35,022 nt of DNA from Lentisphaerota bacterium. Its GTDB lineage: Bacteria; Verrucomicrobiota; Lentisphaeria; Victivallales; Victivallaceae. Each line of letters opens with the position of its first letter. The stretch's first letter is position 1. Positions 2,156 through 11,392 of the stretch are shown here, in pieces. The translations under genes were made by a program, and so were the position numbers. A model generated the notes under the pieces. It searched no databases. It was not told the origin of the DNA and worked only from the letters and a program-made list of their open reading frames with translations. The stretch covers positions 1 through 35,022 of the forward strand of contig SUWA01000022.1 of NCBI GenBank assembly GCA_015061695.1, given 5' to 3'.

Positions 2156-4111
2156 TTACCGTTTGACTTCCACGCTGAAACTTGATGCCGGCAGCCCGGC
2201 TTCGTTGTACAGGGTACTGGCGGGATTATCGGACCAGGCGTAGCGGACAAATCTTACCTGCGCAGCATCGGCTTCAGCAATTATCACCTGATTGCCGGAT
2301 ACGGTGACTTTTCCGGCAGCGGTAAAGTTTTCACCATCGTCTGACAGATAAAAACTCTGTTCGCAATCGTTCTTCAGGGTAAGAGTTTTTACATTATCAA
2401 AAGTCAGAATTACTTTATCTTCAAAACTTTCAGCGGTAATGATTTCCGGGCCGCCGGGGACGATATTTTTTTGACCGTAAACATTGTTCAAAGCAACTGC
2501 TGCCAGCCGGCTGCCCACATTCTTTTTGTCCTGCGGGTGGATGTCGGCGGCTTCTCCAATATCAATAGCGCTTGCCATAAAAGTAAACGGGTGATTTTTA
2601 GCCAGCAACCGCTGACTTTCCCGCAACGGGGCCCAGAATGATCCGGCATCATAGGCGGCAAATTTATTGTAGTTGGCAAGCTGTACCATAATAAAAGGCA
2701 TTTCCCAAGACTGGAATGAATAACGCCAGTCATTGATCAGACTTTGGAGAATGGAGTAATAATTTTGCGAACTTTCGACATTCAGAGCGTTGCTTTCGCC
2801 CTGATACCAGATCACCCCGGCGATCGCAGCGGGCAGCAGCGGCCGGATCATACTGTCAAAAAGGATCGAGGGCGTATTTTGAAACCCGGGTCCATAAAAA
2901 TCAGCTGAATACAGCGGCGAAACCCGGCCGATATCCAATTCAACTTCGATCTTCCAGCTGCCGGTGATTTCGATGGATTCGCCCAGTTCAGGGCATTGCA
3001 GAATGCGTTTGCCGGAAAAATTACCGTCAAATGCCGCAGAATATGCCCGGATCGCCAGCAGCACTTCCGTGGTATTGACCAGCGCTGCCGGAACAGTATA
3101 TACGCGCAATATATCCCAAGCGGTCATAGATGCGCCCGAACCGGTACGGCCGATTTCGCTGCCGTTGAAATAAGTTATATCCTGTTTGTCAATGGTTCCG
3201 GCACTGAAAAGCAATTCCTTGCCGAGCCATGTTGGCGGAATGGAAACTTTTTTGCGGACCCAAACGGCACCATTGCCGGCGATCTTCTGGGCTATCCAAC
3301 TGCCGGGAAGCTCCATTTGCCGCCAGGAGCTGTCATCAAATTCCGGGGTATGGAACCTTTGTTTGGCGCCTTCGTTTTCGCCGTCGGGGCGCAGGCGTTC
3401 TTGCAATCCGATCGCCAGATTGCAGCTGTCGGCAGTCCGGTAGTTATTGGGGCGCTGATGACTGATAAAATACTTGTGTATCAGATCGCGGGTGTGCGGA
3501 TTACCTGCCAGAGCGGTGCTGCTCATCCATGCTTCGGCAACAGTACCGCCCCACGCGGAATTAATAACCCCGATGGGGATATTCAAATCCTGCTGCAGAT
3601 AATGAGCAAACCATGCTGAAACTGCGGAACAATTACCGGCATGTTCCTTTGTCATTGACTGCCATTTACCCTTAAAACAGCTTTCATGGCAACTGCTTGC
3701 CAGCATCGGTACAGTAATAAAACGGCACTGAAACGGATTCTTCAGCGAACGGTAAAATTCGCGTTCCTGCTGTCTGGCAACGGGGTCGGGGTCGCTTTTG
3801 TCAGTCCGGGAATCGCTGCCGAGCTGATAGTACATATTCGATTGCCCCGAAGCAAGCCAGACTTCCCCGAAAAGAATATCTTCCAGCACCACAGTTTCCG
3901 CCCCGTCCGAAATTTTCAGGGTGTAAGGGCCGCCGGCTGGATGTTCCGGCCAATAAAGCATAAAAAATCCATCTGCGGCACTGCGGCAGAAAACCTTGGT
4001 GTCATCCAATTCGCCGGTGATCAGTGACTCCGGTTCAGCCCAGCCCCACAGCGGCACGATCCGATCCCGCTGCAATACGGCACCGGTTTGAAAAAGATCT
4101 GCAAGACGCAT
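2156..4111 (-). CDS. Sialate O-acetylesterase-family SGNH hydrolase
   Basis: A 651-residue protein of the sialate 9-O-acetylesterase family, which removes acetyl groups from sialic acids or other glycans. GEVWLASGQSNMYYQL carries the nucleophile (Ser91), VIWYQGESNA is the second conserved block, and DIHPQDKKNVGSRL carries the Asp/His pair of the triad. A beta-rich carbohydrate-binding-like insert (FDDSSWRQMELPGSW and following) sits between the first two blocks, as in family members. I place the start at 4111 because GGGAG lies 6 bases upstream; an upstream ATG at 4189 would extend the protein across the operator palindrome and lacks such a site. With this start there is no obvious signal peptide, which is unusual for an enzyme expected to meet extracellular glycans. 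Confidence 0.85.
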   Translation of the reverse strand: MRLADLFQTGAVLQRDRIVPLWGWAEPESLITGELDDTKVFCRSAADGFFMLYWPEHPAGGPYTLKISDGAETVVLEDILFGEVWLASGQSNMYYQLGSDSRTDKSDPDPVARQQEREFYRSLKNPFQCRFITVPMLASSCHESCFKGKWQSMTKEHAGNCSAVSAWFAHYLQQDLNIPIGVINSAWGGTVAEAWMSSTALAGNPHTRDLIHKYFISHQRPNNYRTADSCNLAIGLQERLRPDGENEGAKQRFHTPEFDDSSWRQMELPGSWIAQKIAGNGAVWVRKKVSIPPTWLGKELLFSAGTIDKQDITYFNGSEIGRTGSGASMTAWDILRVYTVPAALVNTTEVLLAIRAYSAAFDGNFSGKRILQCPELGESIEITGSWKIEVELDIGRVSPLYSADFYGPGFQNTPSILFDSMIRPLLPAAIAGVIWYQGESNALNVESSQNYYSILQSLINDWRYSFQSWEMPFIMVQLANYNKFAAYDAGSFWAPLRESQRLLAKNHPFTFMASAIDIGEAADIHPQDKKNVGSRLAAVALNNVYGQKNIVPGGPEIITAESFEDKVILTFDNVKTLTLKNDCEQSFYLSDDGENFTAAGKVTVSGNQVIIAEADAAQVRFVRYAWSDNPASTLYNEAGLPASSFSVEVKR

Positions 4112-6883: not shown

Positions 6884-7732
6884 TCAGTTTGCCGCTGCCG
6901 CGTTTTTCAGGCGTCGGATCTCATCGGCCCAAAGTTCCGGAACCGGGGTTTCGAGGATGATCGGTACATTGTCGAGGTTTTTATCTTGGGCAATGCGCTC
7001 AAAAACCTCCCAGCCCAGCGTGCCGCCGCCCAGCGATTCATGCCGGTCAAGTTTGCTGCCCAATGGCGCTTTGGCATCATTAAGGTGAATACCGCCCAGC
7101 CGGTCAAACCCGAACAGTGATTCAAATTTCTGCCAGAAAGCCGCGTAGCCTTCAAGCGTTTTCAAGTCATACCCGGCAGCATAACTGTGGCATGTGTCAA
7201 TACATACTTTGACCAGTTCGCTGTCGTGGCAATATTCAATGATCCGGGCGATCTGCTCCAGTTCAAAGCCGACATTACTGCCTTGCCCGGCAGTATTTTC
7301 GATGACCGCCATGACTCCGTTGGTGGCGGCAAGGGCCTGATTTATACCTTCGGCGATCCGTTGCAGACATTCATCCATTTCTATTTGTTTCAGGTGGCTG
7401 CCGGGGTGGAAATTCAACCGTTTCAGCCCCAGGGCTTCGCAGCGGAGCATTTCTTCGGTAAACGCTTTGTGCGCGGCCGCCGCTTTACCGGCATCGGGCT
7501 GCCCCAAATTGATCAGGTAGCTGTCGTGCGGCAGGATCATGCTCAAGTCAAAGTTATGTTGCTGGCAGTTGGCCTGAAATCGGGCAATATCTTCCGGCTT
7601 CAACGGCGGTGCGTTCCATTGACGCTGATTTTTGGTGAACAGCGCAAAAGTATCCGCTCCGATAGCAGCAGCGTTCAATGGAGCATTGAATACTCCGCCG
7701 GAAGCGCTGACATGGGCTCCAAAATATTTCAT
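6884..7732 (-). CDS. nfo: Deoxyribonuclease IV (AP endonuclease, endonuclease IV)
   Basis: The 282-residue product is a TIM-barrel AP endonuclease that cleaves the DNA backbone 5' to abasic sites in base excision repair. Metal and active-site segments appear in the family order: GAHVSASGGV at the N-terminus, LNFHPGSH, VIENTAGQGSNVG, CIDTCHSYAAGYD, HLNDAKAPLGSKLDRHESLGGG and the closing ILETP. The frame stays open upstream, but the ATG at 7732 fits the family N-terminus exactly (MKYFGAHVSASGG); GGAG lies 11 bases upstream. It is the first gene of a minus-strand pair with the dehydrogenase and is divergent from the XPB-Bax1 pair, so the locus clusters DNA repair functions. Confidence 0.96.
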   Translation of the reverse strand: MKYFGAHVSASGGVFNAPLNAAAIGADTFALFTKNQRQWNAPPLKPEDIARFQANCQQHNFDLSMILPHDSYLINLGQPDAGKAAAAHKAFTEEMLRCEALGLKRLNFHPGSHLKQIEMDECLQRIAEGINQALAATNGVMAVIENTAGQGSNVGFELEQIARIIEYCHDSELVKVCIDTCHSYAAGYDLKTLEGYAAFWQKFESLFGFDRLGGIHLNDAKAPLGSKLDRHESLGGGTLGWEVFERIAQDKNLDNVPIILETPVPELWADEIRRLKNAAAAN

Positions 7733-7876: not shown

Positions 7877-9277
7877 ATGATCAAAGTTGTTTTTGACAAT
7901 GGTACGCTGTTGTGGAGCGGCAGCGATATGCCGCAGCTGGCGGCCGCCGACCCCGCGCACTTTAAATTTGATGAACGGGTAACTGCATTCCGCTCCCGCG
8001 GTTGTGATTATGCGGCATTGGTTCAGAAAATCCGCGAGCTGCAATTGGATTTTGACGATCATGCTTGTGCTTTTGCTCCGTTGGAAGAGTTGCAGCTGGC
8101 CCAAAATGTGATCCCCCGTCCGCACCAGCAAACCGCTTTTGAGGCGTGGCGGCGAGCCGGATATCGTGGTGTAGCGGCCTTGCCCACCGGCAGCGGCAAA
8201 ACCATTCTGGCAGTCATGGCTATAGCCCGGCTCAAACGCCCTACGCTGGTTCTGGTTCCTACGATCGATTTGCTGACTCAATGGGCCGGTGTGCTGGAAA
8301 CGTTTTTTCAGCAGGAAATCGGTATGTGGGGCGGCGGCAGCAACACGACTTGCAATATAACTGTATCGACTTACAATTCGGCGGTTTTAAAGATGGAGTT
8401 TTACGGCAATAAGTTTGCTTTTCTGGTTGCCGATGAGTGTCATCATCTGCCCGGTGCGGTCAATCAAATGGCCGCACAATGGTCGATCGCTCCTTATCGC
8501 CTGGGGTTGAGCGCCACTCCGGAAAGTGATGCCGGACGCGATGAAGTTTTGACTGATTTGATGGGGCCGGTTTGCTGCCGGGTGCAGATTGATGAATTAA
8601 GTTCCGGTATATTATCGGATTACGAAGTGGAAACGATCCCGCTGGAACTTTCCGGCGCTGAACAGGCGCAATATCTGGCCAACCGCAAGATCTATACTGA
8701 TTTTCTGCATCGGCACCGGGTGGTGATGAATTCGGTACACGCATGGCGCAATTTTATTTTGGAAGTGGTCAAAAACGGACCGGAAGGCCGCAAGGCGTTT
8801 GAAGCGTATCTGGCCCAAAAAGCGCTGGCCCGGGGCGGGGGCGCCAAGCTGGATATGGTTTGGCGGCTGCTGGTTCGCCATGCCGGGGAGCGGATCATTA
8901 TTTTTACTGCTGACAATGCCACGGCTTACGAAATCGGCCGCAGCTATCTGCTGCCGGTGCTGACCCATCACACCAAAAGTGGCGAACGCAAAAATATGTT
9001 GGAAAATTTCCGCACCGGCGCTTGTCCGGTACTGGTTTCCAGTAAAGTCCTCAACGAGGGCGTGGATGTACCGGAAGCCAATATCGGGATCATTGTTTCC
9101 GGTGGTGCCAGTGTGCGCGAACATGTTCAGCGTCTGGGGCGTATCTTGCGGGCCAAACCGGGCAAAAAAGCTGTGTTGTATGAATTGGTGAATGTGGGAA
9201 CCAGTGAATTGAATGTACTCAACCGCCGCCGGGAGCATCGCGCTTACACCAGCAAACTGGGGAGCGATTTATGCTGA
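7877..9277 (+). CDS. XPB-like superfamily 2 DNA helicase (partner of Bax1-like nuclease)
   Basis: A 466-residue SF2 helicase. The first ~80 residues match the position of the damage-recognition domain of XPB; RPHQQTAFEAW is the Q-like entry, LPTGSGKT (102-109) Walker A, DECHH (186-190) Walker B, LSATP (211-215) motif III, and QRLGRILRAKPGK (418-430) motif VI. A helical insert between the RecA lobes (about 265-335) fits the XPB thumb region. XPB opens DNA during nucleotide excision repair and transcription in eukaryotes and archaea. The downstream gene encodes its nuclease partner and overlaps by 7 bases, so translation is coupled. The ATG at 7877 has only a weak ribosome binding site. Confidence 0.88.
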   Translation: MIKVVFDNGTLLWSGSDMPQLAAADPAHFKFDERVTAFRSRGCDYAALVQKIRELQLDFDDHACAFAPLEELQLAQNVIPRPHQQTAFEAWRRAGYRGVAALPTGSGKTILAVMAIARLKRPTLVLVPTIDLLTQWAGVLETFFQQEIGMWGGGSNTTCNITVSTYNSAVLKMEFYGNKFAFLVADECHHLPGAVNQMAAQWSIAPYRLGLSATPESDAGRDEVLTDLMGPVCCRVQIDELSSGILSDYEVETIPLELSGAEQAQYLANRKIYTDFLHRHRVVMNSVHAWRNFILEVVKNGPEGRKAFEAYLAQKALARGGGAKLDMVWRLLVRHAGERIIIFTADNATAYEIGRSYLLPVLTHHTKSGERKNMLENFRTGACPVLVSSKVLNEGVDVPEANIGIIVSGGASVREHVQRLGRILRAKPGKKAVLYELVNVGTSELNVLNRRREHRAYTSKLGSDLC

Positions 9278-10512
9278 ATCGGGATTTATTGCAGTATCAT
9301 GCGGCCAATGGCCGGATAAGCGTACGCTTTGTTCAGATACAGCCGGAGGTTTTGAATCTGGCATCAACATTGCTGGAACTTTATGATGCGGCGCTGAAAA
9401 AGAAGCTCTCCCGCACGGAGTTGGATGACCAGCTGGAGCCTTTTTTGAAGAATCCCCGGGGCGGCAAACTGGCCGCCGGATTCAATAAGTTGATCAAAGA
9501 TCATTGCGAATTTGTCAGTGCTGCCGATTGTGAAGATCCACCGGCGCGGCGGGAAATTATTTTCAAAACGGCCGCGCAGTTTTTGCAATCGCCGCCGGAT
9601 GATCCCAAGTTTTACCGGCGTTTGACTGCCACTGCGTTGCCGGAAAATACCGCTTTGCCGGAGGATATTTACAGCGATCTGCCGGAATTTGACCGTTTGC
9701 AGAGTGTTCCGCCCTGGAGCAGTGCTGATTTATGCAATCTGTACAATACAGCATTGGTGCAAGGTTTGTTGTTTTATGCGGATAAGCTGGAACTTACCGT
9801 GGTGGATACCGAGCCGATGGTGTTGCGCAAATTTATGCGGCGATTGAAATTTTACCGGCTGCTGGCGGAAGTCAAAAAGTCTTCTGCTTGCGAAATCAAA
9901 CTTACTTTGAGCGGCCCGGCGGCGCTTTTTGGCGAAAACCGCAAATACGGTTTGCAGCTGGCGGCGTTCTTTCCGGTGATATTATTGCTGAAAAACTGGA
10001 AGTTGCGGGCTGTGCTTAAACTGCGGGATAACCGGGAGGATATACTTAATTTGACCAGCGAAAAGTGTTCGCTGAAAAGTTCGGTACGCCGCTGGGTAGA
10101 GTGTCTGCCGGACGAAGTGGCGCTGTTTATCCGCACCTTCCGCAACGCTGCCGGTAATTGGCAGGAAGCTCCGGAGGCGGAATTGCCGCGCATTGCGGGG
10201 CAGGGGATTTTCTTCCCTGATTTTTCTTTTATGCGCACCGACGCGGCCAAGATGGTGGTGCATGTGGAGTTGTTTCACCGCTATTATAATCACGCGTTGG
10301 AAAACCGGTTGGATTTTTTGCTGCAAACACCCGGATTCCCTCTGGTGGTGGGGATCGACCGGGCGGCACTGGGCAAGGATGGCGAACGGCAGCTGCAGGA
10401 AAAATATGCCGCCTTATCGGATCAGATATTCTTTTTCAGCAACTATCCGGGGGCAGAACGGGTGCGCAAGATGCTCGATAATGTTTACGAAAAACGCACC
10501 CGTCTGCTTTGA
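9271..10512 (+). CDS. bax1: Bax1-like (DUF790) nuclease, XPB partner
   Basis: A 413-residue protein matching the DUF790/Bax1 family, a structure-specific endonuclease that binds XPB in archaea. The hallmark LYNTALVQGLLF (157-168) is present. The C-terminal nuclease core reads FFPDFSF (Asp317) then VVHVELFHRYY (Glu333), the PD-(D/E)xK-like arrangement of the family, with His where many nucleases have the final Lys. The N-terminal half is helical and should hold the helicase-binding surface. The start codon lies inside the helicase gene (7-base overlap). It ends 22 bases before the convergent methyltransferase gene. The family call rests on the motif, the length and the XPB neighbour, which together are strong. 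Confidence 0.88.
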   Translation: MLNRDLLQYHAANGRISVRFVQIQPEVLNLASTLLELYDAALKKKLSRTELDDQLEPFLKNPRGGKLAAGFNKLIKDHCEFVSAADCEDPPARREIIFKTAAQFLQSPPDDPKFYRRLTATALPENTALPEDIYSDLPEFDRLQSVPPWSSADLCNLYNTALVQGLLFYADKLELTVVDTEPMVLRKFMRRLKFYRLLAEVKKSSACEIKLTLSGPAALFGENRKYGLQLAAFFPVILLLKNWKLRAVLKLRDNREDILNLTSEKCSLKSSVRRWVECLPDEVALFIRTFRNAAGNWQEAPEAELPRIAGQGIFFPDFSFMRTDAAKMVVHVELFHRYYNHALENRLDFLLQTPGFPLVVGIDRAALGKDGERQLQEKYAALSDQIFFFSNYPGAERVRKMLDNVYEKRTRLL

Positions 10513-10534: not shown

Positions 10535-11392
10535 TTATTTCCGGATCCAGGTGGCGGTGATGCCTGCCGGCAGAACACGCCCGGTCGTTTCCGGAATAAA
10601 CATTTCGCGGCTTTCGATCCGGCCGTGGCCCAGGACCGAATCCAGCAAGCGCTCCAGCACCAGCGGCGTAAACCCCGGCGAGTGGCAGCTTAAAGTAACG
10701 AACGCATTGCCGTCTTTTTCCAGCAGCTCCCTGCACATGGTCAGCAATTCAATGATTTGATCGTCGATCTTCCAGAGTTGACCGGCGCTGCCGCGGCCGA
10801 AGCTCGGCGGGTCAAGCGCAATACCGCGATAGCGGTTGCCGCGGCGCAATTCGCGTTTGCAGAATTTGTTCACATCATCCACGATCCAGCGGATGCGGTC
10901 CGGCACATCATCATTCATGCTCTGATTGATCCGCCCCCATTCCACCATTCCGCGCGAGGCATCCAGATGCGATACCAACGCCCCGGCGCGGGCCATAGCC
11001 ATGGAACCGATCCCGGAGTAGGCAAAGAGATTCATGGTTTTGACATCTTTGCCCAGAGTAGGGATGATTTCTTCAAAAAACTCCCAGTTGGCATACTGTT
11101 CGGCAAAAAAACCGAGATGCCCGAAACTGGTCGGTTTGATGTGCAAATTGAAATTGCCCCAACGCATTTGCCAGCTTTCCGGCAATTGACGGTTGAGCGT
11201 TTTCCATTTGCCGTGGCCGGAGCTGTCGCGTACAAATTCGGCATCGGCACTCTGCCACTCTTGATTGCTCAATTTGGGCTGCCAACAGGCGCAAAGTGCC
11301 GGGCGGATAAGTTTCCAGCTGCCGACCTGTTCGAGCTTGCGGAAATTACCGGTATCGAGCAGTTTATATTCCATTATCTGATTGTTTTTCAT
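10535..11392 (-). CDS. RlmI-like class I SAM-dependent methyltransferase (no PUA domain)
   Basis: A 285-residue methyltransferase with MNLFAYSGIGSMAMARAGA as the SAM-binding motif I, the acidic motif II SHLDAS, and DPPSFGRG as the active-site motif of the PF10672-type rRNA m5C methyltransferases (RlmI/RlmK group). It lacks the N-terminal PUA domain of RlmI; instead the first ~100 residues form a short beta-rich domain. The likely substrate is rRNA, but this is family inference. The start at 11392 overlaps the stop of nagA by four bases (ATGA), implying translational coupling. It ends facing the Bax1-like gene with no visible terminator in the 22-base gap. Confidence 0.8.
   Translation of the reverse strand: MKNNQIMEYKLLDTGNFRKLEQVGSWKLIRPALCACWQPKLSNQEWQSADAEFVRDSSGHGKWKTLNRQLPESWQMRWGNFNLHIKPTSFGHLGFFAEQYANWEFFEEIIPTLGKDVKTMNLFAYSGIGSMAMARAGALVSHLDASRGMVEWGRINQSMNDDVPDRIRWIVDDVNKFCKRELRRGNRYRGIALDPPSFGRGSAGQLWKIDDQIIELLTMCRELLEKDGNAFVTLSCHSPGFTPLVLERLLDSVLGHGRIESREMFIPETTGRVLPAGITATWIRK

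Follow-up and report, generated by a model that had tools for sequence, protein, structure and literature searches.

A putative XPB-Bax1 helicase-nuclease gene pair retained jointly across much of the bacterial class Lentisphaeria

The window analyzed here, a contig of 35,022 nucleotides (C59) from a Lentisphaerota metagenome-assembled genome (MAG; 2.65 Mb, 85% complete), carries two overlapping reading frames that are predicted to encode an XPB-type helicase and a Bax1 (DUF790) nuclease (Table 1). The original prediction had described precisely such an overlap of an XPB-like with a DUF790/Bax1-like gene, and both frames are confirmed at the positions listed. Their overlap suggests that translation of the two genes may be coupled, and a scan for promoters and terminators found no signal above chance. 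The minus strand at 10535-11392 encodes a small methyltransferase, kin to 23S rRNA methyltransferases (RlmI/RlmK-like) and scoring well under every equivalog cut-off.

Table 1. Features of the XPB-bax1 locus (window coordinates)
Feature	Position	Strand	Details
nfo, endonuclease IV; divergent neighbor, not judged part of the system	6884..7732	-	deoxyribonuclease IV, 4e-123
XPB-type SF2 helicase with DRD, HD1, thumb (ThM) insertion and HD2	7877..9277	+	466 aa, full length
XPB damage-recognition domain (XPB_DRD, PF18458), residues 6-63	7892..8065	+	Pfam 2.5e-9
XPB RED-motif position, Ser-Asp-Ala replacing Arg-(Asp/Glu)-Asp	8525..8533	+	alignment
Bax1 (DUF790) nuclease; start codon within the XPB gene end, 7-base overlap	9271..10512	+	413 aa, full length
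YNTALVQ motif, residues 158-164	9742..9762	+	Y158/N159 are the aligned counterparts of the functional Tyr-Asn in archaeal Bax1
PD-(D/E)XK core, Asp317 of its PD motif; aligned to D305 of AfBax1	10219..10221	+	D in 89/89 copies
PD-(D/E)XK core, Glu333 of its third motif, ELFHR(W/Y); aligned to E318 of AfBax1	10267..10269	+	E in 89/89 copies

As judged from its sequence, the upstream frame is an XPB of the archaeal XPBII layout. Besides the damage-recognition domain, it matches the Pfam families ERCC3_RAD25_C (2.1e-15), ResIII (1.8e-24), and Helicase_C (7e-17), and it retains the helicase motifs. In phmmer searches of the PDB, almost its entire length aligned with A. fulgidus XPB (8e-88) and S. 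tokodaii XPBII (1.3e-80). These matches far exceed those to RadD (9e-11), UvrB (3e-8), and T4 UvsW (5e-5), so the protein does not group with type III restriction or UvsW enzymes, the outcome named beforehand as speaking against an XPB assignment. A structure predicted with AlphaFold2 from the window and relative sequences is of moderate confidence (pLDDT 79, pTM 0.60), and its top structural matches are the S. tokodaii and A. fulgidus XPB proteins, with a TM score of 0.79 to the DNA-bound 6p4f chain. XPB of the mycobacterial type (NF045503) is likewise bacterial, but the window protein reaches only 158.8 bits against the 610-bit cut-off of that family and differs from it in having an archaeal-type DRD and thumb as well as a Bax1 partner.

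The assignment of the downstream frame is similarly direct. PF05626 (DUF790) matches residues 1-399 at 5.7e-56, covering profile positions 1-384 of 387, and in a profile search of the genome the protein scored 190.4 bits against a curated cut-off of 28.8. Bax1 chains in the PDB were matched at 4.6e-18 with the single sequence and at 1e-35 with a family profile. The AlphaFold2 model, built from the same kind of input, has a pLDDT of 85, and its PDB fold matches at E < 0.001 consist solely of Bax1 from Pyrococcus, Sulfurisphaera, and Archaeoglobus (E 9e-23 to 3e-19). The NCBIfam Bax1 equivalogs NF053694 and NF053695 scored 81.7 and 74.5 bits, below their 500-bit cut-off; by sequence, the window protein is homologous to these two narrow archaeal equivalogs but lies outside them. 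Both the YNTALVQ hallmark and the PD...E nuclease core anticipated by the original prediction are present, the latter supplied by the string FPDF...HVELFHR, whose D317 and E333 are invariant in all 89 Lentisphaeria-clade copies. Mutation of Y152/N153 in TaBax1, the Tyr-Asn equivalent of YNTALVQ, lowers activity (PMC7293015). E282 is also invariant and aligns two residues off the place expected for motif I (E275 of AfBax1), in a region where the alignment is insecure.

Archaeal XPB-Bax1, represented by A. fulgidus (6p66), the S. tokodaii XPBII-Bax1 structures (6p4o/6p4w/6p4f), and P. furiosus Bax1 (8gy8), consists of the same full-length proteins, with the same DRD/HD1/ThM/HD2 and N-terminal/central/nuclease layouts, PD...E core, and Tyr-Asn, while haloarchaeal records have the same XPB-bax1 gene order with mostly overlapping ends. 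Structural alignments place the identity to the window proteins at about 21-25% for Bax1 and 32-37% for XPB. The DUF790-helicase pair of Deinococcus (Rad25, DRA0131 in the literature) has the same gene order, likewise with adjacent genes and mostly overlapping ends, and shares 25-30% (Bax1) and 42-44% (XPB) identity with the window pair, but it is plasmid-borne in the sampled records. Three sequence differences set the window pair apart from its archaeal counterparts. Firstly, the archaeal EIxGFW motif reads ELFHRW in the window; H336, which follows E333, is invariant in the Lentisphaeria clade, whereas archaea and Deinococcus (EIVGYW-type) have glycine. Secondly, D133/E135 of AfBax1 form a proposed second active site in the N-terminal domain, one not known to occur in all members of the Bax1 family. 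D136 of the window protein preserves the first acid, whereas the E135 position is proline in 88/89 clade copies and in four of five from Deinococcus, whose D-L-P is shared with the window Bax1; this second acid is missing from most of the bacterial Bax1 sampled. Thirdly, the RED motif, which StXPB requires for full DNA binding and ATPase activity (PMC7672443), is absent from the window XPB. Its arginine occurs in every sampled archaeal and Deinococcus XPB, whereas the position varies within the Lentisphaeria clade (R in 44/76 copies). Taken together, these three departures from archaea suggest that the machine has a single incision site and clamps lesions less tightly.

By homology to the archaeal mechanism (PMC7293015, PMC7672443), several steps can be proposed for the bacterial pair. 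The two RecA domains of XPB would grip a bubble or fork, the thumb would wedge the strands apart, and ATP-driven 3'-to-5' movement would open the duplex. The N-terminal domain of Bax1 would dock on XPB, and its PD-(D/E)XK domain would nick the 5'-overhang strand at the junction. We infer that the two proteins presumably form a complex, as do their archaeal relatives.

An argument for joint function comes from the distribution of the two genes among 388 Verrucomicrobiota genomes sampled at a requested completeness of at least 85%. DUF790 was found in 103 genomes and XPB in 104, the two sets being identical save for a single XPB-only genome, G373; no genome had Bax1 only and 284 had neither. In G373 the XPB match runs to position 3893 of a contig 3903 bases long; any gene downstream would have gone missing with the contig end, which would account for the XPB-only status of this genome. 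A comparison of coordinates by hand showed 83 of the 103 genomes to have the genes adjacent and 18 to have them unlinked, with 2 left ambiguous by contig ends. Since the unlinked genes can be as far apart as 2.6 Mb (G022) or 1.4 Mb (G025), physical linkage is unable to explain all of the agreement between them. Presence of the two genes also agrees fully among 41 close relatives, except in G032, whose XPB is 129 bases away from the end of its contig. When 37 of these genomes are placed on a UvrB tree, presence switches at least 4-5 times, with both genes changing together each time, although a sign test on the four independent pairs alone reaches just p = 0.125 because independent events are so few. 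The retention of both genes in genomes where they are unlinked provides good genomic evidence for joint action of the two proteins in bacteria as well. Three members of genus g16 with genomes among the smaller ones (G057, G067, and G097; 1.8-2.0 Mb) lack both genes, which their congeners possess; this makes them candidates for a recent loss of the pair as a whole.

When examining the phylogeny of the pair, it is evident that it belongs chiefly to one class. Lentisphaeria accounts for 102 of the 103 carriers in the Verrucomicrobiota sample, including the isolates Victivallis vadensis, Oligosphaera ethanolica, and Lentisphaera marina. Against outgroups from Deinococcus, haloarchaeal plasmids, and the archaeal chains of known structure, the Lentisphaeria sequences form a single clade, which also takes in one anammox planctomycete MAG, at 100% support in both the XPB and Bax1 trees. 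Deinococcus is the nearest group, supported at 97/92 for XPB and, less surely, at 84/67 for Bax1, and the clade falls outside the sampled archaea in both trees. The original prediction had raised horizontal acquisition and an archaeal origin. A recent or local acquisition is ruled out by the class-wide spread and monophyly of the pair, whereas an ancient transfer from archaea may have taken place; it is compatible with the trees, which were rooted by choice on Archaeoglobus/Sulfurisphaera/Pyrococcus and sample few archaea and no cyanobacteria. Contamination of the MAG can also be rejected, since the pair is present in isolates and the block with nagA and dnaA is shared by four congeners. Outside Lentisphaeria, the phylum yielded a single pair (G300:C21, L121), which is strongly diverged (XPB 35%) and is placed outside the Lentisphaeria-Deinococcus group, so it was probably acquired independently. 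The anammox planctomycete sequence, from a Candidatus Anammoxibacter MAG (L086, JAIQZO010000024.1, 2102-4718), lies within the Lentisphaeria clade in both trees and could reflect either an inter-phylum transfer or misbinning.

The genes surrounding the pair bear upon its possible functions. A divergent nfo gene is indeed present as predicted, and a block of nfo, XPB-bax1, an rRNA-methyltransferase-like gene, a nagA-like gene, and dnaA is common to the window and its closest named relatives, the Lentisphaerae MAGs SIG95, SIG91, SIG78, and RGIG5313. The suggestion that nfo and the pair constitute a local repair cluster did not hold beyond the genus: nfo adjoins the pair in four congeners only, and a search of flanks of up to 4 kb at the remaining 76 named loci did not find it. 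Elsewhere in the Lentisphaeria, recurrent neighbors have the look of housekeeping genes, ilvN/ilvH and a pseudouridine synthase among them, and none of any other type recurred among the loci. About 20 loci (L037, L046, L047, L051, and others; about 1.7-2.3 kb) have an ACT-domain-like ORF immediately 5' of XPB on the same strand, which resembles the acetolactate synthase small subunit.

A defense or restriction helicase-nuclease of the Pbe/Dnd kind, directed against foreign DNA, would be another way to read the locus, though such surroundings speak against it. The helicase does match PADLOC PbeA (1.3e-52) and NCBIfam dnd_restrict_1 (1e-39), and the Deinococcus and haloarchaeal copies are plasmid-borne, one of them close to a restriction-modification module. 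However, dnd_restrict_1 scores 136.7 bits against a 600-bit cut-off, and both it and PbeA fall well below the 298-bit XPB match, so we read them as matches to a shared helicase core. Furthermore, Bax1 has no PADLOC or PHROGs match, a search for phage or viral-contig copies of the pair found none, and the pair is spread class-wide in a clade-like rather than a defense-island-like manner. We therefore consider a defense role improbable.

Certainly, the most obvious question is how the pair relates to excision repair. Complete UvrA (C55), UvrB (C73), and UvrC (C63) are all encoded by the source genome, as had been proposed for checking, and UvrABC is found in nearly all relatives as well; the pair thus coexists with UvrABC, and its replacement of that system is ruled out. 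Coexistence would fit a true second pathway of nucleotide excision repair, in which XPB-Bax1 recognizes bulky lesions and incises independently of UvrABC, as would the preference of archaeal XPB-Bax1 for small bubbles and the XPG-like action of Bax1 at the junction (PMC7672443, PMC7293015). Such a pathway, however, requires a second, 5' incision, and the N-terminal acid pair expected to make it in Archaeoglobus is Asp...Pro here. No association of an XPF nuclease with XPB-Bax1 was seen among the 388 genomes. ERCC4 is scattered over 63 of them, and 12 of those 63 carry the pair where about 17 would be expected, so it does not track the pair. The sole XPF-like gene of the source genome, an ERCC4-only nuclease ORF of 155 aa (G000:C58:28708-29091, L126), sits beside exonuclease-like and nucleic-acid-binding-like ORFs in a phage-like module, and a partner akin to archaeal XPF was accordingly rejected. 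Genetics in XPB-bearing archaea, which are not bacterial data, also reveal no such pathway: Halobacterium uvrA/B/C mutants are fully deficient in dark repair despite their XPB homologues (PMC1590041), deletions of S. islandicus xpb1, xpb2, and bax1 had no observed effect, and deletion of T. kodakarensis xpb caused marginal sensitivity (PMC4471258). A second excision pathway therefore seems unlikely to us, if somewhat less so than a defense role.

Transcription offers another possible connection. In bacteria, stalled transcription is generally handled by Mfd, and Mfd-sized ORFs (~1100 aa) with a UvrB-like stretch were found in nearly every genome surveyed for UvrB. That XPB is a transcription-linked factor that opens or backs up stalled complexes, while Bax1 acts as a regulator or, at times, as a nuclease, has been speculated for Halobacterium rad25 (PMC1590041), and eukaryotic XPB homologues do act in transcription. 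Nevertheless, Mfd would already cover this task in bacteria, and we give the transcription reading as little credence as the defense reading. With no XPF partner associated and archaeal genetics opposed to a redundant UV pathway, an auxiliary role at bubbles, forks, or stalled transcription is the most likely, in preference to a second general UV excision system. Overall, we hold with moderate confidence that the genes encode a bacterial XPB-Bax1 helicase-nuclease, its role being the less sure part, that would act in an auxiliary pathway alongside UvrABC at bubbles, stalled forks, or blocked transcription. Weighing against this reading are the missing RED motif of the window XPB, the lost second N-terminal acid in most sampled bacterial Bax1, and the insecure placement of the motif I acid. 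More tentatively, and as something possible rather than probable, a bacterial class may keep a single-incision bubble/fork version of XPB-Bax1, with the N-terminal site lost and RED relaxed, for a task other than that of UvrABC, which would amount to an undescribed genome-maintenance pathway.

DUF790 has been described as nearly confined to Archaea and Cyanobacteria (PMC1189080), and a 2012 study of mycobacterial XPB stated that no XPB-Bax1 complex had yet been identified in bacteria (PMC3353954). Deinococcus records already annotate both genes side by side, so a bacterial pair has been visible in databases, while a paper on the Lentisphaeria set was not found in the open-access literature searched. 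The Lentisphaeria pair is a further case of a known XPB-Bax1 system. Its class-wide distribution and its sequence signature are both well defined, and much of the class stably keeps the two genes together alongside normal UvrABC. For archaeal XPB-Bax1, strong biochemistry and structures exist, yet deletions give little or no phenotype. The Lentisphaeria pair, spread over a class and strict in its co-occurrence, and the neighboring Deinococcus version offer organisms in which to study what XPB-Bax1 does in the cell once the uvr genes are cleanly removed.
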